DNA from: a virus
Virus record (IMG/VR): IMGVR_UViG_3300032242_003379
Location: 1 to 37,969 of that record
Strand: one strand, 5' to 3'
Length of the DNA stretch: 37,969 nt
Shown here piece by piece: positions 3,924 through 35,813 of this stretch; within the stretch, counting starts at the first letter, position 1, and every line of letters starts with the position of its first letter. The notes under the pieces were generated by a model. That model saw only the letters and a program-made list of their open reading frames with translations. It did not search any database and was not told the DNA's origin. The translations under genes and the position numbers were made by a program.

Positions 3924-6086
3924 TCATAGCTGTTTCAGCCGCACTTCAAGGCTGGCCTTCGTCCACGGGCTGGTGGCAATCACGCGCAGCCGATGCGTTC
4001 CTTCGGTCACCGGCAGGTCCGCCACCGGCGCGCCGGACAAGCTGGGCTGCACGCCGCCCGAAAAAGTGAAAGTGCCGATCGTCGTCCAGCTGGCGCCGTC
4101 CCACAGCTGCACCGCGGCCGCGCCGGTAATGGGTGTTTCAGCCAGCATGCTGCTGCCCACCAGCCCGGCCGGGATGCGGCCGCTGCTGGCCACGGGGAAG
4201 GCGGCGACCACCTGGTTCAGCGTGGGCGCCAGCTCGGCAAAGAACGTATAGGTCGCCTCGGTCCGCAGGCGGGCGGTATTCCTTACCCACGAGGTCGGTG
4301 CCAGCTCTTGGCTGTTGCTGCCCGCCGCCGGCGTGTAGTTCAGCCGCGCCACGCCATTGCTGGCGCCCAGCACGACATCGGCGGCTTTCCCCGGCATGGC
4401 CGTGGCAATCAGCTGGACCTGCCCGTTATCGGCCAGCACATCCAAGAACCCGGTGGCCGTGGCGGTTCCGAAAATATCCAGCAAGGTCCTGGCATAACTG
4501 CCATTCGTGAACCGATGGCCACCCAGCCCCTTTGCGTCGTAACCCACCGTCACGTCAGCCGCCGCGCCCCGTGCGGCCAGGGATGGCAACGCGCCCGCTG
4601 GCCCGCCGGCAAACTCTACCCAGGCCACGCTACCGGGCGTCCGTAGCACACGCACCGATTCCTGCCCCGGAATGCCATGCCCCAGAGTGACGAAGCCGTC
4701 CTGATGACTGACTGCCTGAACATCGGTGCCGGGGAAAAGCCCGAACAGGTACTGAACCGTGGTGCCGTCGTAGCCAACGGCAAACCGGATGGGGTAGGTG
4801 ATCGCGCCTTTCGCATTGTCGCTGTAGCTGAAGAAATCGTATCCCCAGCCTGCGCGGGCAAAAGCGCCGAGCGTTTCTTCCTTTTCCCCGGATCGCAACT
4901 GCACATGCCAGCCAGAGACCTGTTGATCGATATCCTGCTTTTGATCGAAGGCGACGCCCACCGCATTGCCGGGCGCAGCATCCAAGGTAAGGCTTGTGGG
5001 CGTGCCGGCCACCACCGAGTATTTCTGTCCAGCGAACCTCAGATAAGAACCACGGAAGGGGATGAATTTATCGCCCGACTTCCAGGTGACGGTGGTGCCC
5101 GATATGTCGCAAAAGCCTTGCGCCCGCGTGATAAGGTACGTCCATGTCCAGTTGGTTTGAGCTGCCCCCCAAGCTACAGGCGCGTCAGTCCACTGGCTGA
5201 CGGTGACTTCGGCCACATAACCCGCTGGCGGCGTGGCGGTGTTGATCGCCGTGATCTTGAAGCCGCCGATCACACCAATCAGCAGGGGATCGCCGATCCA
5301 TGCTGTCTGGGGCAGCAGGTTCGCAGTCTTGATCAGGACGCGATTCGTGCCGGCCGGCAAATCGCAGTCGCCCTGTGCCGGGTTGCCATAGATGTTGAAT
5401 TCGGTGCCGCCATACGGCTGGCCGGTCTGCAGCACCGTCCAGTTGGCGTGGCCGTCCTTCTTGAACCAGGCGCCTGCGGATTCTCCGGGACCTGTCCCGC
5501 CCAGCTGCAAGCCGGTTCCGTCGCCCATATTGGTGCCTACGCGCAGCACTGGGAAAGCCGTGTTTGCGCTGGGCAAGGACCCAAACGGCAGCGCCTTCAG
5601 CTCGCCGTTTTCCACCGCGATCAGGATCAGGCCGTCCGCGTGTTCGAAGACTGGCAAGTAACTCACGCGCCGTGCGGTGAAGGGGCCGCCCGAAGGGGTC
5701 ACCGGCGGGCCCAGATCGTCCATGACCAGCACAGGCCCCGGATCGCCAGGCACCACCTGCTGCGGTTGCGCCGCGAACTCCCTCTCCCGCACCGCCTCGC
5801 CAGGCGTCGCGCAGCGCCACTGCACGCCCCAGGTGCCGGGCACGTCCGCGGTCAGGTCGACGCGATAGCGGCCATCGGCATCCAGCCCGATTTGCTCGGG
5901 CGGCATGGTCACCAGAACACCATCCGGCCGCTTTACCGTGACGGTCAAGCCGCCCGGCTGGACCAGCGCGCCCGCTTCCGTGCGGAACCCGGCATGGGAC
6001 CGGATGGTCTGCCCGACCAGCACGGCAGGCCGGCGGGCGCCGGTGTCCGGGAAGAAGGTCAGCTCTATGGAAAGCGGCGTGACCAT
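3924..6086 (-). CDS. Large tail fibre / receptor-binding protein
   Basis: 720 residues from the ATG at 6086, which overlaps the upstream stop as TGATG; a longer reading frame begins inside the preceding gene and is not needed. The N-terminus (about 1-110) looks like an Ig-like structural domain with GGLTVTVKRPDGVLVTMP and WGVQWRC. The middle contains repeated aromatic beta-strand sequence, and the C-terminal ~100 residues (DGASWTTIGTFTFSGG) look like a beta-sandwich tip. No catalytic motif is recognised. Its size and place after a fibre assembly protein suggest the main host-recognition protein. Confidence 0.65.
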   Translation of the reverse strand: MVTPLSIELTFFPDTGARRPAVLVGQTIRSHAGFRTEAGALVQPGGLTVTVKRPDGVLVTMPPEQIGLDADGRYRVDLTADVPGTWGVQWRCATPGEAVREREFAAQPQQVVPGDPGPVLVMDDLGPPVTPSGGPFTARRVSYLPVFEHADGLILIAVENGELKALPFGSLPSANTAFPVLRVGTNMGDGTGLQLGGTGPGESAGAWFKKDGHANWTVLQTGQPYGGTEFNIYGNPAQGDCDLPAGTNRVLIKTANLLPQTAWIGDPLLIGVIGGFKITAINTATPPAGYVAEVTVSQWTDAPVAWGAAQTNWTWTYLITRAQGFCDISGTTVTWKSGDKFIPFRGSYLRFAGQKYSVVAGTPTSLTLDAAPGNAVGVAFDQKQDIDQQVSGWHVQLRSGEKEETLGAFARAGWGYDFFSYSDNAKGAITYPIRFAVGYDGTTVQYLFGLFPGTDVQAVSHQDGFVTLGHGIPGQESVRVLRTPGSVAWVEFAGGPAGALPSLAARGAAADVTVGYDAKGLGGHRFTNGSYARTLLDIFGTATATGFLDVLADNGQVQLIATAMPGKAADVVLGASNGVARLNYTPAAGSNSQELAPTSWVRNTARLRTEATYTFFAELAPTLNQVVAAFPVASSGRIPAGLVGSSMLAETPITGAAAVQLWDGASWTTIGTFTFSGGVQPSLSGAPVADLPVTEGTHRLRVIATSPWTKASLEVRLKQL

Positions 6087-26810: not shown

Positions 26811-27266
26811 CTAGCCGCGCCGGCGACGGGCGGGCTCGCGCGCATCCTCGCGCGCGCGGGCAGGCGCAGGCACCCCCGCGGCTGCGGGGTCAGTGGGGAA
26901 CAGGCTGCCTTGCGCGTCGGTCATCAGCGCCGCTTGAAGGTGGCGATGGACGGTGCTTTCCCAGCACCCCAGGCGGCGGGCAATTTCCCGGTAGGACAGG
27001 CCGCGGGCGCGATACAGCCGCATGCGCCAATCCCGCGCCAGGGGGATGCGGATTTCCTCCCCGCCCCGGATCTCCGCCAGGGCCCGCGCTCCAGGCAGCC
27101 CCACCAGCCGCGCCAGCTCGCTGCCCTGGTTGGGAATGCGCGCGCAGTACACCGCCGTGCCGCCGGCTTGTTCGATGGCATGCAGCGCGGCGTCTTCGCC
27201 CACGGCATCCACCAGCCATGCAATTTCCACCGGCGGGCGGATGGGGCGGGGCGGGGCGTTAGCCAT
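26811..27266 (-). CDS. mor: Mor/C-type transcription activator
   Basis: 151 residues. The Mor pattern shows in GGTAVYCARIPNQGSELARL, the short beta strand RGGEEIRIPLARDW, and an HTH (SYREIARRLGCWESTVHRHL). Mu has two such proteins, Mor for middle and C for late genes. Only one is visible here, so it probably drives the late genes directly. The C-terminal ~35 residues are Pro/Ala/Arg-rich and overlap element c. The ATG overlaps the preceding stop by 8 bp. Confidence 0.88.
   Translation of the reverse strand: MANAPPRPIRPPVEIAWLVDAVGEDAALHAIEQAGGTAVYCARIPNQGSELARLVGLPGARALAEIRGGEEIRIPLARDWRMRLYRARGLSYREIARRLGCWESTVHRHLQAALMTDAQGSLFPTDPAAAGVPAPARAREDAREPARRRRG
26835..26889 (-). promoter_or_regulatory. 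Late-region repeat element, copy c (end of mor)
   Basis: The minus strand has a dyad (CCCCGC-AGCC-GCGGGG, 26874-26889) then GGGTGCC, a 10-base spacer, a CGCGCGCGAG run and GATGCGCGCGAG. The dyad-to-run spacing is as in copies a and b. It overlaps the last ~25 codons of mor and precedes the zinc finger gene, the position of Mu Plys. GC-rich repeats can look alike by chance, but the ordered match over ~50 bp is unusual. Confidence 0.55.
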
Positions 27267-27645
27267 CGTCCGGCACCTTGGCGATTGTCAGCCCCCGCTG
27301 CCGCGCCAGCCATGCCTGCAGCCCGCTCAACGCATCCTCGAACTGCGCGGCGGTCAGCTCTTCCGCCGTCCGCACGCCATAGCGCTTTAGCAACCAAGTC
27401 TCGGGCGACGCATAGACGCCGGCCCGGAAAGCCCCGGCATCCGCCAGGTCATTCCATGTCTCCCGGAACACGGACCGGGTCACCGCATGCACCGGCGTCG
27501 CCGCGACCAGCGCATCCACGCTGGCCATGGCGATGGCGACGCGGCTTTCCTGGTCTGCCAGCGCCCGCGCCAGGTCCCGCTTCCCGGCCTGCGCCGCCTC
27601 TCGCATCAGGCCGCTGATACGGGTTCGCACCTGGTCCCGGGTCAT
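27259..27645 (-). CDS. Conserved early/middle phage protein, unknown
   Basis: 128 residues, ATGA overlap with the upstream gene. It is helical, with an Arg-rich N-terminus (RTRISGLMREAAQAGKRDLA) and a C-terminal WLLKRYGVRTAEELTAAQFE followed by LQAWLARQRG. I do not recognise a family. Codon bias and tight coupling support a real gene in the pre-mor operon. Confidence 0.72.
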   Translation of the reverse strand: MTRDQVRTRISGLMREAAQAGKRDLARALADQESRVAIAMASVDALVAATPVHAVTRSVFRETWNDLADAGAFRAGVYASPETWLLKRYGVRTAEELTAAQFEDALSGLQAWLARQRGLTIAKVPDDG

Positions 27646-28787: not shown

Positions 28788-29040
28788 CCAGGTGCGCTCC
28801 TGTCAGGATCAGGGTGTTCACGCGGTTGATGCGCTGCATCCATTCCATGCTGGGGTGCTGGCCGGCGTTCAGCAGCGCCACCGTCTCTTCATTCAACAGG
28901 TTTACCGCTGTCAGCAGCGCGCGGGTTGCCACCTTGCGGGCGGCCGATGTTTCCGGGTTGGCCAGCCGACCCGACAGCCGCACCTGCCGGGCCGTGCAGT
29001 CTGCCAGCACCCCCAGCAGGGCGACTGTCCCGGCGCTCAT
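28780..29040 (-). CDS. Small helical early protein, unknown
   Basis: 86 residues from the ATG at 29040 (ATGA overlap). It is mostly helical: VALLGVLADCTARQVRLSG, ARKVATRALLTAVNLLNEET. No recognised family. Position and coupling place it in the early/middle operon. Confidence 0.7.
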   Translation of the reverse strand: MSAGTVALLGVLADCTARQVRLSGRLANPETSAARKVATRALLTAVNLLNEETVALLNAGQHPSMEWMQRINRVNTLILTGAHLDD

Positions 29041-29237
29041 AGCGGCAGCTCCGGCGCTTGCTCGGTGTCCAGCAGGGCGATCGCGTCTTCCAGCAGGGCG
29101 ATGCGGCGCGCCATGTCCGCCGCGGTCATCTTCCCGGCGGCGACCCAGCGGGGATAAACCCGCTGCCGCATTTTCAACTCCCGCCGCAGCTCGGCGACCA
29201 CATCGCGCACCGGCGCGGGCTCTCGCGCGCCGCTCAT
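29037..29237 (-). CDS. Small conserved early protein
   Basis: 66 residues, ATGA overlap. DVVAELRRELKMRQRVYPRW followed by VAAGKMTAADMARRIALLED resembles short helical proteins common in alphaproteobacterial phages and prophages. Function not known. Confidence 0.75.
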   Translation of the reverse strand: MSGAREPAPVRDVVAELRRELKMRQRVYPRWVAAGKMTAADMARRIALLEDAIALLDTEQAPELPL

Positions 29238-30226
29238 CGCTGCGCCGCCCGGGCGCTGGCATCCGCCGCCGCCAGATACGCCAGCACCTGGGACAAAGGC
29301 GCGCCCGTTTCATCCGCGATTTCCCGGCCGCGCTTGCCCTGATCACGCAGCGCCAGGATCTCCGCCCGCAGGTCGCCGGGCTTCACCACGGCGGGGCTCG
29401 GCGCGGGCCGGGGCGGCGGGGGCGGCGGCGGCGCCGGTGGCGCGTCTGGTCCCCGGGCCTGCACTTCGGCCGGCGCTATTGCGTAGGGGCGCGGCGTTTC
29501 CAGCTGTTCTGCCCTTGCCCGGCTGTAGATGCTGCCCTTGGACATGGCCGGGCCGGGCAGTGCCTGCAGGCGCTGTTGCACATCGCCCATGCTCAGCGTG
29601 TCATCAACCCACAGCTCGCGCAGAAGCTTGCGTCGGGCCGGCGTCCAGATGGTTAGAGGTTCTTCGTTATCGCCTGCTGCAGGCGCAGCACAGCCAACAT
29701 GGCGTTCGGATATCCCATCTGCGCCATCAGCAGCGGCAGCGGGATCAGCAGCAAGTGCACCAACGTTGCAGCGTTGGTTATCAGGGTCACTCTCACCAAC
29801 CGCCAAGCAGTGGTCAGGTAGCTTTCGAACATTCCTCGCATCCCCCTTATCCAGCGCCGCAGCGCCCCGCGCCCACACGGGCAGATCCAGCACCAGCCCC
29901 ACCGTTTCCAGCCGATGCGCCACCGCGGCGCACGGACGCTTGCCGCTGACCACCCACGGCATGATGACAAAAAGCGAACCGGCGGCGCCGTGCGCGCACA
30001 CCAGCTTGCCTTCCGCATCCGGCACCAGCGCCAGCCGCGTGCGGGTGACATCCGCCTTGATCCGCACCCGGGTTTCGCCCGGCTGCCAGCCAATCGCCCG
30101 CAACAGCGCGGCGCTCAGCACCAGCTCCCCGCCCGGGCTGCCCTTGCCGGGCAGGCGCCAGCCCAAGGTCACCCGTTGCGCGCTGGGCGGCGCGATCGGC
30201 CGGGTGATGTCGTCCCAGCCGTCCAT
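29234..30226 (-). CDS. Two-HTH early protein with low-complexity linker
   Basis: 330 residues from the ATG at 30226 (TGATG with the gam stop). The N-terminal ~133 residues form a compact domain of unknown family. Residues ~133-193 are an acidic Ala-rich linker whose DNA also encodes a hydrophobic ORF in another frame. Next comes a GcrA/Myb-like HTH (TIWTPARRKLLRELWVDDTL), a Pro-rich tract, and a C-terminal HTH (ALRDQGKRGREIADETGAPL). It is probably a DNA-binding regulator. Third-position GC collapses only in the linker, so a fusion or indels are possible. Confidence 0.65.
   Translation of the reverse strand: MDGWDDITRPIAPPSAQRVTLGWRLPGKGSPGGELVLSAALLRAIGWQPGETRVRIKADVTRTRLALVPDAEGKLVCAHGAAGSLFVIMPWVVSGKRPCAAVAHRLETVGLVLDLPVWARGAAALDKGDARNVRKLPDHCLAVGESDPDNQRCNVGALAADPAAAADGADGISERHVGCAAPAAGDNEEPLTIWTPARRKLLRELWVDDTLSMGDVQQRLQALPGPAMSKGSIYSRARAEQLETPRPYAIAPAEVQARGPDAPPAPPPPPPPRPAPSPAVVKPGDLRAEILALRDQGKRGREIADETGAPLSQVLAYLAAADASARAAQR
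29653..29832 (-). CDS. Embedded out-of-frame membrane ORF
   Basis: 59 residues, MFESYLTTAW followed by a hydrophobic stretch from about residue 12 to 36 (VTLITNAATLVHLLLIPLPL). It is inside the 330-residue gene in a different frame. By hand count, 48 of 59 codons end in G/C here, against 22 of 59 third positions for the enclosing frame. AAGGGGG lies nine bases before the ATG. Local GC is lower than the flanks. It may be a small inner-membrane protein, or the trace of a gene into which the flanking frames have been joined. Confidence 0.5.
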   Translation of the reverse strand: MFESYLTTAWRLVRVTLITNAATLVHLLLIPLPLLMAQMGYPNAMLAVLRLQQAITKNL

Positions 30227-30744
30227 CACGCCACCTCCCGCAGTGCCAGGCCGGCCGGGATCGCCTCGAACGCCTCCGCCTGTTCGATGGACACGCCGGG
30301 CAACGTGCTGGCGACGTCCGGTTCCCGCAGCAGCGCTTCCTTGTCCAGCTCCACCTTGGTCCGCAGGAAGCGCGGCAGCGCCAGCTCCCGGATCACGTCG
30401 ATCAGTTTCGCCGCGCTGGTGCCGCGCAGCGCCACGGACGGCGGGTTGGTGCGCCAGCGCAGCTCGCCGGTGGCCAGCGCGATCGTTTTGCCGTTGCCCT
30501 TCGTCAGGGTCTGACGGTTCGCCACGGCCCAGATTTCCAGGCCATAGGTCGCGGTCTCCACCACCGCGCGATGTGGTGCCGCCAGATCCTCCGCCTCCGC
30601 TTTCGCGGCCGCCACGGCTTCATCCAGGCTGGCCTGGATGCTGCCCAGCGCGCGCTGCGCCTCGCCCAGCCGGGCCAGCTCCGCCGCCGCGTCGGCTTCG
30701 GTCTGCGGCACCGTGGTGGTGATCGCCTTCTTTTTCGCTCGCAT
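30226..30744 (-). CDS. gam: Gam host-nuclease inhibitor
   Basis: 172 residues. After a Lys-rich start, a helical coiled-coil arm is followed by GNGKTIALATGELRWRTNPP, SVALRGTSAAKLIDVIREL and FLRTKVELDKEALLREPDVA. These align well with Mu Gam, a Ku-like dimer that binds DNA ends and blocks host exonucleases. TGATG overlap with the DnaA-like gene. Confidence 0.94.
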   Translation of the reverse strand: MRAKKKAITTTVPQTEADAAAELARLGEAQRALGSIQASLDEAVAAAKAEAEDLAAPHRAVVETATYGLEIWAVANRQTLTKGNGKTIALATGELRWRTNPPSVALRGTSAAKLIDVIRELALPRFLRTKVELDKEALLREPDVASTLPGVSIEQAEAFEAIPAGLALREVA

Positions 30745-31094
30745 CAGTTATCCTCCAGGGTTAAGCGCGCCACTCTCAGCGCGGCGGCGAATTGCTCGTC
30801 TTCCAGCTCCAGCCGCATGGCCGCGCGCAGGCTGTGCTGGACGGTGCTGTGATCGCGGCCCAGCAGCCGGCCAATCTGATGGAAGCTCTGGTCCGTGCGC
30901 TGGCGGGCCAGCAGCACGCAGGCATGCCGGGCCCGCACCACCGAACCGATGCGTGTCTCCGACAGCACCCGGTCCGGCAGCACCTGGAAGGCACCGGCCA
31001 CAGCCGCCACAATGTCCCGCAAGCGCGGCGGCGGCGGCACGCTGGCCAGGATCGCGGCGCGATCCGCCAGCGCGGACTCGAAGCGCCCGCTCAT
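30744..31094 (-). CDS. Free-standing DnaA domain IV protein
   Basis: 116 residues from the ATG at 31094 (overlapping the B stop as TGATG; a GTG at 31097 is the alternative). RHACVLLARQRTDQSFHQIG, then RLLGRDHSTVQHSLR is the DnaA box-binding helix-turn-helix and signature. The AAA+ part is absent. It could recruit or compete with host DnaA at DnaA boxes during replicative transposition. It lies between B and gam. Confidence 0.88.
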   Translation of the reverse strand: MSGRFESALADRAAILASVPPPPRLRDIVAAVAGAFQVLPDRVLSETRIGSVVRARHACVLLARQRTDQSFHQIGRLLGRDHSTVQHSLRAAMRLELEDEQFAAALRVARLTLEDN

Positions 31095-32059
31095 CACGCC
31101 GCTTCCGTCAACGGGCCATTGCCCAGCTGCGCCCAGGCCATCTTCAGGTGGTCGACGGACACCGCCGCGCGTTCCCCGGACGCCATGATGTGCGCCAGCT
31201 TCAGCGTCTTGGTCAGCGCCCGCAGGGCGCCGGGCTTGCGGGAGATAACCCGCAGGAAGTCCCGGCGCGGCTTGTCATCAATGCCCCAGGCATCGATCAG
31301 GGCGTCCGCATCCGCCGTCTTTGTCTTGGCGGCCAGGCGCACGCCCACCCGGCTGAACAGCTGGGCAAATTCCGCCGTCCGCGCGCCGCCTTCCAGCCGG
31401 CTGAACACCCGGGCATTGCCCAGCAGGGCGAGGCCGCATTCGGCTTCGTCATGGATGCTGCGCAGCTGGTCCAGCGCCTCGCTGGACAGGTGGTTGGCTT
31501 CATCCACCACCACCAGGGCCTTAATGCCCCGCAGCTTGTTCACCAGGGCGCGGTGCTGCATGTGCAGCATGCCCCCGCCCGGCAGGCCGATCAGCCGAGA
31601 AAGCTCCGTCAGCACGTCGCGCGGCATGCGCAAGCTCGGGTTGGCGGTGATCTTGAAGACGTTGGCGGTCTCCCGCGTGTACCGGCAGGCCGCCGTGGTC
31701 TTGCCCACGCCCGGGGCGCCGGTGATCACGCAGAAATCCGGCATGTGCTGCGCCTGGCGCAGCACCGCCAGCACGGAATCGGCGGTCTCGGTCAGGATAA
31801 AGCCGGGCGCGGTGGGCGCGCTGGCCAGGGTCTCAGACCGTTCGCGCCGGGTGTTCAGCCACTTCTGCACATCCATCGCCACGCGGTCAGACCGCCCGGC
31901 GTACTTGGCCGATACCCAGGCCGCGAAGGTGGCATAGGCGATGCCGCTTTCCTTGGCGGCGCTGGCCACGGACCCGATCTCGCCGATCGCCGCGCGGGCC
32001 AGCACCCGCACCGCTTCGATTTCGTCCTCGCTAAGAACCTTCTCAGTGGTCTCTGACAT
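31094..32059 (-). CDS. B: Transposition ATPase B (target-DNA activator)
   Basis: 321 residues. An N-terminal HTH-like region is followed by an AAA+ core with Walker A GAPGVGKT (114-121) and Walker B LVVVDE (182-187), and a small C-terminal domain. The length matches MuB (312). It binds target DNA, delivers it to transposase and gives target immunity. AAAGGAAG lies just before the ATG. Confidence 0.95.
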   Translation of the reverse strand: MSETTEKVLSEDEIEAVRVLARAAIGEIGSVASAAKESGIAYATFAAWVSAKYAGRSDRVAMDVQKWLNTRRERSETLASAPTAPGFILTETADSVLAVLRQAQHMPDFCVITGAPGVGKTTAACRYTRETANVFKITANPSLRMPRDVLTELSRLIGLPGGGMLHMQHRALVNKLRGIKALVVVDEANHLSSEALDQLRSIHDEAECGLALLGNARVFSRLEGGARTAEFAQLFSRVGVRLAAKTKTADADALIDAWGIDDKPRRDFLRVISRKPGALRALTKTLKLAHIMASGERAAVSVDHLKMAWAQLGNGPLTEAA

Positions 32060-34564: not shown

Positions 34565-34906
34565 TCAGCGCCTGGCCTGCGTCAGCGCACCGAACAGCAC
34601 GGCCCGCGCCGTGAGCCAAGGTTCAGAGCAGCTAAATGGCGGGACATCATCCTTGGAAACCATGGGCGCCGGCGGCACGGCATCGCGCCGCATCGGGCCT
34701 TCCCCTGTCGCCAGCCAGTGCAGGCGCACGCCCAGCCCTTCGGCGATCTTCATCGCTTGGCTGAGCCTCGGCTCCATCCCCGCCTGAATGCGCAGCAGGG
34801 TCGACAGCGGCATCCGGGTCTCCGCCGCCAATTTCGACGCGGCCGGGCCATCCTTCAGCGCTTGGACAATCCGCGCGTGGATGTCCTGGGGATCGCGGCC
34901 GCTCAT
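34565..34906 (-). CDS. Second HTH regulator
   Basis: 113 residues from the ATG at 34906 (ATGA with the small membrane gene). The HTH is AASKLAAETRMPLSTLLRIQ, followed by ALKIAEGLGV-like MKIAEGLGVRLHWLATGEGP. The end of this domain (HWLATGEGPMRRDA) nearly repeats that of the repressor (EWLATGKGPMRDA). It is probably a related early regulator or antagonist of the lysogenic repressor. Confidence 0.78.
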   Translation of the reverse strand: MSGRDPQDIHARIVQALKDGPAASKLAAETRMPLSTLLRIQAGMEPRLSQAMKIAEGLGVRLHWLATGEGPMRRDAVPPAPMVSKDDVPPFSCSEPWLTARAVLFGALTQARR

Positions 34907-35022
34907 GGCGCCACCCCCAGGGCAACCAGCACCAGCGGGGTGCCCCAGAACACCGCGAACATCATCGCGGCGAACAGCAGGGCGCCGGCCGCGACCTCCG
35001 TCACGGTTCGCAGGCCGCTCAT
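34903..35022 (-). CDS. 39-residue membrane protein
   Basis: The peptide starts MSGLRTVTEVAAGALL and continues FAAMMFAVFWGTPLVLVALG, so about 30 hydrophobic residues follow a short soluble start. The ATG overlaps the ParB-like stop (ATGA) and its stop overlaps the next start (ATGA), which supports translation. Function unknown; superinfection exclusion is a typical role for tiny early membrane proteins but is only a guess. Confidence 0.68.
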   Translation of the reverse strand: MSGLRTVTEVAAGALLFAAMMFAVFWGTPLVLVALGVAP

Positions 35023-35813
35023 GCCGCCACCTTCGCCAGGAAGGCGCGGAAATTCGCGCGCACCGCATCCGATGCGCCGGTCCACAGCACCAGCAGCTTG
35101 GCGTAGTCACGTTCATCGCGCGGCTGTTCCTGCCGGGGCTGCGCCAGCCCCAGCCGCTGCAGGGCTTCGGCCACGGTCCGCGCGGGGCTGTCTTCCGCCA
35201 GCAGGGCGGCGGCTACGCGCCGCTGGTCCACCTGCGCCAGGCCGGCCAGCACATCCAGCTGGGCGCCCTTCATGGCCACCGGATGCCCGGTCAGCTGGGC
35301 GCGCACATCGGCCGCGATGTCCGCCCGGGCAATCGCCCGGTCGATCGTGCGGGCGGAAAGCCCCAGCTTCCGGGCGGTGGCCACGCTGAACCGCTCTTCC
35401 AGCGGCGCGTCGCTATTAGAGACAGACTTGTCTCTAATGCGCCGGCCCGGCTTGGCGGTGTGCGGGTGGATCTGCTGCCAGACCGCCCGGCGTTCCGCCA
35501 GGAACACGGCGCGGTCCAGCTCGGACAGCTCCCGCCGCATCAGGTTTTCGTCAATCTCGACCAGCCGGGCTTCCAGGTCGGAACCCTGGAAGACGCTGGC
35601 CAGGATCGTCTCCCAGCCCAGCGCCTGGGCGGCCCGCAGCCGGTGCAGGCCGGCCACCAGGGTGAAGCCGCCGGCCTCCGGGCGAACCTCAATCGGGGTG
35701 CGCTGTCCCCGCTCCCGGAAGCTTTCGGCGATGGCGGTGACCCAATCGGGGTCTGCGGCGCGCAGCCGTCGTCCGACTTTGATCTCGGAAACGTGAAGTT
35801 CTGTACCTGTCAT
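35019..35813 (-). CDS. ParB-like nuclease-domain protein
   Basis: 264 residues. The N-terminal ParB/Srx fold shows VRPEAGGFTLVAGLHRLRAA (G55-x-H-R) and ENLMRREL (89-96). A central HTH region follows (FSVATARKLGLSARTIDRAI). ParB-like proteins bind DNA and use CTP or act as nucleases. In Mu-like phages of alphaproteobacteria such genes precede the transposase. A perfect inverted repeat lies inside the gene at 35415-35438. The ATG is two bases after the ner stop. Confidence 0.88.
   Translation of the reverse strand: MTGTELHVSEIKVGRRLRAADPDWVTAIAESFRERGQRTPIEVRPEAGGFTLVAGLHRLRAAQALGWETILASVFQGSDLEARLVEIDENLMRRELSELDRAVFLAERRAVWQQIHPHTAKPGRRIRDKSVSNSDAPLEERFSVATARKLGLSARTIDRAIARADIAADVRAQLTGHPVAMKGAQLDVLAGLAQVDQRRVAAALLAEDSPARTVAEALQRLGLAQPRQEQPRDERDYAKLLVLWTGASDAVRANFRAFLAKVAA
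35415..35438. repeat. Perfect inverted repeat within the ParB-like gene
   Basis: ATTAGAGACA (35415-35424), spacer GACT, TGTCTCTAAT (35429-35438): two perfect 10-bp arms. It is AT-rich inside a GC-rich gene and encodes the linker IRDKSVSNSD just before the HTH region. It could be a parS-like or operator site. A translated hairpin with no DNA role is the alternative. Confidence 0.65.

Follow-up and report, generated by a model that had tools for sequence, protein, structure and literature searches.

A candidate membrane-protein gene nested in the linker region of an early Mu-like phage gene

Within an early gene of a Mu-like phage there is a run of 180 bp over which the gene's own frame loses its third-position G/C bias and another frame of the same strand gains it. 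That other frame is an open reading frame (ORF) for a small hydrophobic protein. Which of the two frames is the gene here, or are both?

The enclosing gene and its surroundings

The DNA analyzed (the window) is virus record IMGVR_UViG_3300032242_003379 of IMG/VR, positions 1 to 37,969. Judged by gene content it is a Mu-like transposable phage, with the locus in the early region on the minus strand: MuA, MuB, Gam and GemA follow in order on one strand, each above the Pfam cut-off (PF02914, PF09077, PF07352 and PF06252), and the full order is MuA, MuB, a DnaA domain IV-like protein, Gam, the enclosing gene, a 66-aa gene and GemA. A portal match to Rhodobacter phages suggests a host among the Alphaproteobacteria. 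All comparison is based on one pair: the window and a locus (L001) on a 15,346-base IMG/VR virus contig from a related phage, the one record found by searches of viral contigs to carry a relative of the outer gene. The features are as follows.

34101-32098, minus strand: transposase MuA
32059-31094, minus strand: MuB
30226-30744, minus strand: Mu Gam-like end-protection gene, directly upstream of the enclosing gene (PF07352, E 1.5e-26)
29234-30226, minus strand: enclosing gene, 330 aa, open in both alleles
29846-30226, minus strand: N-terminal part of the enclosing protein, residues 1-127, no family
29842-29849, minus strand: Shine-Dalgarno sequence TAAGGGGG, 5' of the inner ATG, called from sequence and anti-SD energy
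29651-29845, minus strand: linker, residues 128-192, predicted to be disordered (pLDDT about 25)
29653-29832, minus strand: candidate small membrane-protein gene, 59 aa (MFESYLTTAW...ITKNL), ATG to TAA, in the +1 frame of the enclosing gene
29237-29650, minus strand: C-terminal part, residues 193-330, two weak HTH-like helix bundles and a Pro-rich joint
29037-29237, minus strand: 66-aa gene, directly downstream of the enclosing gene (phrog_19667, E 5.4e-8)
747-1205: holin (phrog_3427)
200-745: endolysin (phrog_315)

Two details may be added, both on the minus strand. The DnaA-like protein between MuB and Gam (30744-31097) stands alone and carries the C-terminal DNA-binding domain of DnaA (PF08299, E 6e-17), and beside GemA (27259-27645) there is a second, weak GemA-like protein (18.9 bits, below cut-off; phrog_286, E 0.0013).

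The enclosing gene starts at ATG 30226 (GTG 30229 is possible too), overlapping the stop of Gam, and its end at 29234 overlaps the start of the next gene. The initial annotation described it as a two-HTH gene. Two HTH-like stretches are indeed present, both within the C-terminal part, which contains helices in the structure model; assignment to HTH families is weak, the Pfam matches being below cut-off only (HTH_23, E 0.0054; HTH_20, E 0.011). The N-terminal part has no convincing match, and the structure model of the whole outer protein is poor (pLDDT 45). A Pro-rich stretch of the protein (29432-29482, minus strand) carries a 9-base in-frame unit that differs between the two phages.

By comparison with the relative, both flanking parts of the outer gene are under purifying selection, and in the outer frame only: dN/dS is 0.24 for the N-terminal part (127 codons) and 0.11 for the C-terminal part (137 codons), and exceeds 1 in the other frames of both. 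Neither allele has a stop in the N-terminal part. Between residue 125 and W194 the outer frame of both alleles is devoid of ATG and GTG; each has one TTG there, at non-matching places, and the next ATG comes some 19 codons beyond W194, inside the conserved C-terminal part. With no break in the outer frame of either allele, selection on its flanks and no intervening ATG or GTG, one fused protein is preferred: the enclosing gene is most simply read as encoding a single protein.

Coding signal in the embedded frame

Recounting upheld the reported switch in third-position bias over the 180 bp of the embedded ORF (the cassette): G or C occupies this position in 22 of 59 codons of the enclosing frame and in 48 of 60 codons (stop included) of the embedded frame. 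The cassette is also lower in GC, as reported, at 56.7% against 72.6% and 73.0% in the flanks. The embedded ORF runs from ATG 29832 to TAA 29653, at a frame offset of +1, and is preceded by the well-spaced Shine-Dalgarno sequence that had been claimed for it: TAAGGGGG lies 9 nt before the ATG and has an anti-SD energy of -11.0 kcal/mol, a value that 0.3% of 582 ATGs on the minus strand attain. The one-TM-like character was likewise borne out, in that the 59-aa ORF has a single hydrophobic segment (maximum 19-residue Kyte-Doolittle hydropathy 1.89); its AlphaFold2 model is helical (pLDDT 78).

Codon log-odds, trained on 11 other genes of the window, give the same picture. Per codon they are 0.50 for the N-terminal part and 0.36 for the C-terminal part; within the cassette the outer frame scores -0.55 and the inner (+1) frame 0.52. 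A scan of 1508 overlapping 55-codon segments from 36 genes, the enclosing gene among them, recovered just four in which the gene's own frame is beaten by more than 0.5 per codon by an open alternative frame of the same strand, and all four lie in the cassette.

Hydrophobicity alone is not unique to the embedded ORF, given that 17 of the 242 ATG or GTG ORFs of at least 45 aa in the window contain a hydrophobic stretch of at least 1.7, several of the 17 being antisense to the genes, on the plus strand. The outer linker was also resampled synonymously. The embedded frame remains open in 82% of draws (82-88% for both alleles), and the fraction of recodings that match its hydrophobicity is 5e-5 of 20,000 draws (for the relative, 0/20,000). 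A longer inner ORF, beginning at TTG 30093 (146 aa), was considered and dismissed: the frame is closed upstream in the relative. Elsewhere on the minus strand, at 34903-35085, a further small hydrophobic ORF (60 aa, maximum hydropathy 2.20) overlaps the end of a ParB-like gene; it is probably another small membrane gene.

Comparison with a related phage

At the same place and in the same frame the related contig carries a hydrophobic ORF of 61 aa; as in the window, the outer ORF contains it entirely, on the same strand but in another frame. Aligned with each other, the inner proteins show 14 identities and no internal gap (Z 8.0, 0/2000 shuffles; P 5e-5 when blocks of 10 residues are shuffled), share the pattern MF..Y...AW...HL.L.P..L....GY, and have Kyte-Doolittle peaks of 1.9-2.0. 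Similarity of linker to linker is barely above that of shuffles (Z 1.3, P 0.11). Codon log-odds in the relative repeat those of the window (N-terminal part 0.55, C-terminal part 0.30; cassette outer -0.45, inner 0.42), and its Shine-Dalgarno sequence keeps TAAGG, with an anti-SD energy of -7.5 that is reached by 5% of the 582 ATGs. A conserved linker with stops in the embedded frame – the pattern named in the initial annotation as speaking against its reading – is the opposite of what is found: the membrane ORF is kept as a protein and the outer frame is open in both phages.

The DNA around the cassette tells of a different history. Flanking DNA is 95-96% identical between the two phages and the cassette 43-57% identical per 60-bp block; elsewhere the phages are about 67-81% identical across aligned pieces. 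The borders of the cassette coincide with the inner ORF, identity continuing until the TAAGG 5' of the start and resuming from TGG, two to five bases beyond the inner stops.

Which frame is selected within the cassette was examined by random placement of the same substitutions over the first 44 codons. The similarity seen in the inner frame is reached in 0.38% of 20,000 draws (P 0.0038); that seen in the outer frame is reached in 81% (P 0.81), and is thus no better than random. The 14 identities among 44 inner-frame residues do not exceed the null expectation (mean 12.5, P 0.32), and the three inner codon positions match about equally often (26, 26 and 23 of 44), so that the inner-frame signal, as read from this alignment, is one of conservative replacement only, not identity. 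Cassette dN/dS is 1.38 for the outer frame and 0.53 for the inner, the latter a weak value with synonymous sites near saturation. When the inner protein is recoded synonymously, the outer frame stays open in 75-77% of cases: openness at this rate by chance means that selection is not needed to explain an open outer frame. Because recoding the linker rarely gives a hydrophobic inner frame and recoding the inner protein usually keeps the outer frame open, the acidic, Ala-rich linker sequence is best explained as the frame-shifted shadow of a Leu-rich helix. Within the 180 bp, selection is visible in the inner frame only, the outer gene reading through. Judged on this one relative, the inner frame has both coding signal and conservation at the protein level. 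This pattern supports what the initial annotation had offered as alternatives, dual coding or a membrane gene whose surroundings later became one open frame; the two are compatible.

Synonymous divergence (pS) gives the age of the pieces. The cassette stands at 0.56; Gam, p66, p28780 and p28359 stand at 0.06-0.17, GemA at 0.25, and ten other genes farther away at 0.33-0.55. The old divergence between the phages is thus kept in the cassette, and young flanks adjoin it on both sides. Between about 30740 and 28112 most 60-bp blocks are 92-100% identical to the related phage; identity drops at 28711-28652 (77%), 29191-29132 (88%), the Pro-rich stretch with its 9-base gap (82%) and the cassette. 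Taken at face value, this segment, from Gam to GemA, is a recent exchange between phages. A single allele replacement inside the recently shared block would explain the arrangement with the fewest events; two separate recent transfers, one on each side, would also do.

Competing explanations and known systems

We consider it probable that the cassette is a nested membrane gene, lying in the +1 frame within an interdomain linker, that the outer protein is read through it, and that the gene exists as divergent, exchangeable alleles. The inner gene, with its one hydrophobic helix, would occupy the linker of an early gene between gam and gemA, and its protein would be translated from its own ATG and Shine-Dalgarno sequence on the same mRNA. 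Ribosomes on the enclosing gene would pass straight through, giving one protein with two conserved parts and a disordered linker. Old, divergent alleles of the inner gene may circulate in the phage population and pass between near-identical flanks by homologous recombination, the tolerant linker permitting such swaps provided that it remains open and in frame. Translation of both frames, membrane insertion and allele exchange as the mechanism are what we infer from these patterns.

The strongest competitor, unlikely in our judgment, is a row of three genes (N-terminal, small membrane and C-terminal), the last starting at ATC or ATT by coupling and the through-frame being a by-product. The C-terminal part does open with an Ile codon, ATC in the window and ATT in its relative, and the inner stop falls there, as in a tight operon; the outer frame inside the cassette is not under sequence selection. 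However, the N-terminal frame has no stop, so that any ribosome on it makes the fusion; ATC and ATT are poor start codons; their third base varies between C and T as in an Ile codon; and neither allele departs from the frame or closes it. Where the inner stop lies suggests an earlier state with three neighboring genes, each on its own, and we infer that these may have been fused by loss of a stop and a start. For nested spanins, a passage of PMC6139136 discusses a route in which a stop codon is lost and a gene extends over its neighbor.

Very little probability attaches to an assembly or base-calling indel, or a decayed locus, having fused separate genes. That both records are IMG/VR virus contigs speaks for it, but two distinct contigs with different cassettes have the same frame relation with no indel required, which makes a base-calling error unlikely, and purifying selection on both outer parts speaks against this reading too. 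Just as improbable is a programmed +1 frameshift at the border of the N-terminal part and the cassette, yielding a membrane-anchored N-terminal part with no independent inner start: the inner frame is indeed +1 of the outer and the window has a G run (AAGGGGGA) at this border, but the relative lacks the run (AAGGAAGG) yet keeps the ATG and Shine-Dalgarno sequence, and its inner frame has an upstream stop (ORF 4922-5050 ends before 5183). That the embedded ORF is a chance open frame, the enclosing protein alone being made, is hardly credible: recodings of the linker usually leave the frame open and long ORFs are common in GC-rich DNA (132 of at least 120 aa in the window), but its hydrophobicity, the inverted coding signal found here only, the homologous ORF and the strong Shine-Dalgarno sequence all count against it.

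Returning to the nested membrane gene, what might it do? The inner proteins match nothing in PADLOC, PHROG, Pfam or NCBIfam, so family libraries lend no homology support for a function. An Rz1-like o-spanin was rejected, neither allele having a cysteine and hence a lipobox, as was a holin or single-gene lysis protein, the holin and endolysin being located elsewhere. Early position, membrane character and allele diversity would fit host interaction or superinfection exclusion; our guess, by analogy, is a role in host takeover or superinfection exclusion.

Searches for further relatives were negative within their scope. Genome contigs yielded nothing, solved structures gave no meaningful match, and three viral contigs (L021-L023) share only a motif of the 66-aa downstream protein. 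Tblastn against phage and plasmid records found no match to the whole outer protein (parts at best E 5), and for the inner proteins hits of E 8 at best, mostly to a transposase. The N-terminal part, both C-terminal parts and both inner proteins gave chance-level hits (best E 0.38) against ten records: the phages RC1, RhkS_P1, ThpS-P1, PeaS-P1, RS1, RR1-B, RcapMu and YPCBV-1, compared whole or in part, and plasmid prophages of Azospirillum and Pannonibacter. In YPCBV-1 gam is followed by a small hydrophobic gene, but this one is separate and shows no detectable similarity.

Several known systems resemble the locus in part, as far as the cited passages describe them. Rz1 of the phage lambda spanins is, like the inner gene, a small envelope-protein gene in the +1 frame of another phage gene, Rz (PMC6139136); unlike it, Rz1 encodes a lipoprotein of the outer membrane and belongs to the lysis cassette, whereas the inner gene is in the early region and has no cysteine. 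PhiX174 E likewise encodes a membrane-spanning protein in an alternative frame within another gene, D (PMC8227390), where disorder is also said to ease gene overlap; however, E is the lysis gene of an ssDNA phage, and the present phage is a transposable one with dsDNA that possesses lysis genes of its own and has divergent inner alleles. The Pseudomonas B3-type phage Fc02 is Mu-like and has small overlapping genes, olg1/olg2 and gene 10, of which Olg1 (7.9 kDa) and Gp10 cause superinfection exclusion, as demonstrated experimentally (PMC9936078); unlike the inner gene, these genes lie beside the repressor, and Olg1 is soluble with an exonuclease-like match. Searches of phage records taken together gave no match to the inner proteins. 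Plasticity regions of Pseudomonas Mu-like phages also hold short variable genes at fixed sites, some of lower GC, but as blocks between core genes (PMC4378225); here the variable gene is inside an open reading frame. Nested phage membrane genes such as Rz1 and E are thus known; the protein family and the linker allele cassette are new, and among the titles, abstract openings and passages surveyed none tells of an allele cassette placed within a linker.

Of two overlapping genes, gene-calling programs usually discard one, as a passage on o-spanins reports (PMC6139136), so that nested membrane genes of this kind go uncounted. In this overlap the selection signal sits with the inner gene, the outer gene merely tolerating it. 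If allele exchange inside the linker is true, it joins three subjects usually kept apart: overlapping genes, disordered linkers and the swapping of phage accessory genes. More tentatively, the linker may be a docking place for a polymorphic membrane gene with many alleles, all in the +1 frame and all leaving the linker open. If so, one recombination event would swap a host-interaction protein with no added genome length.
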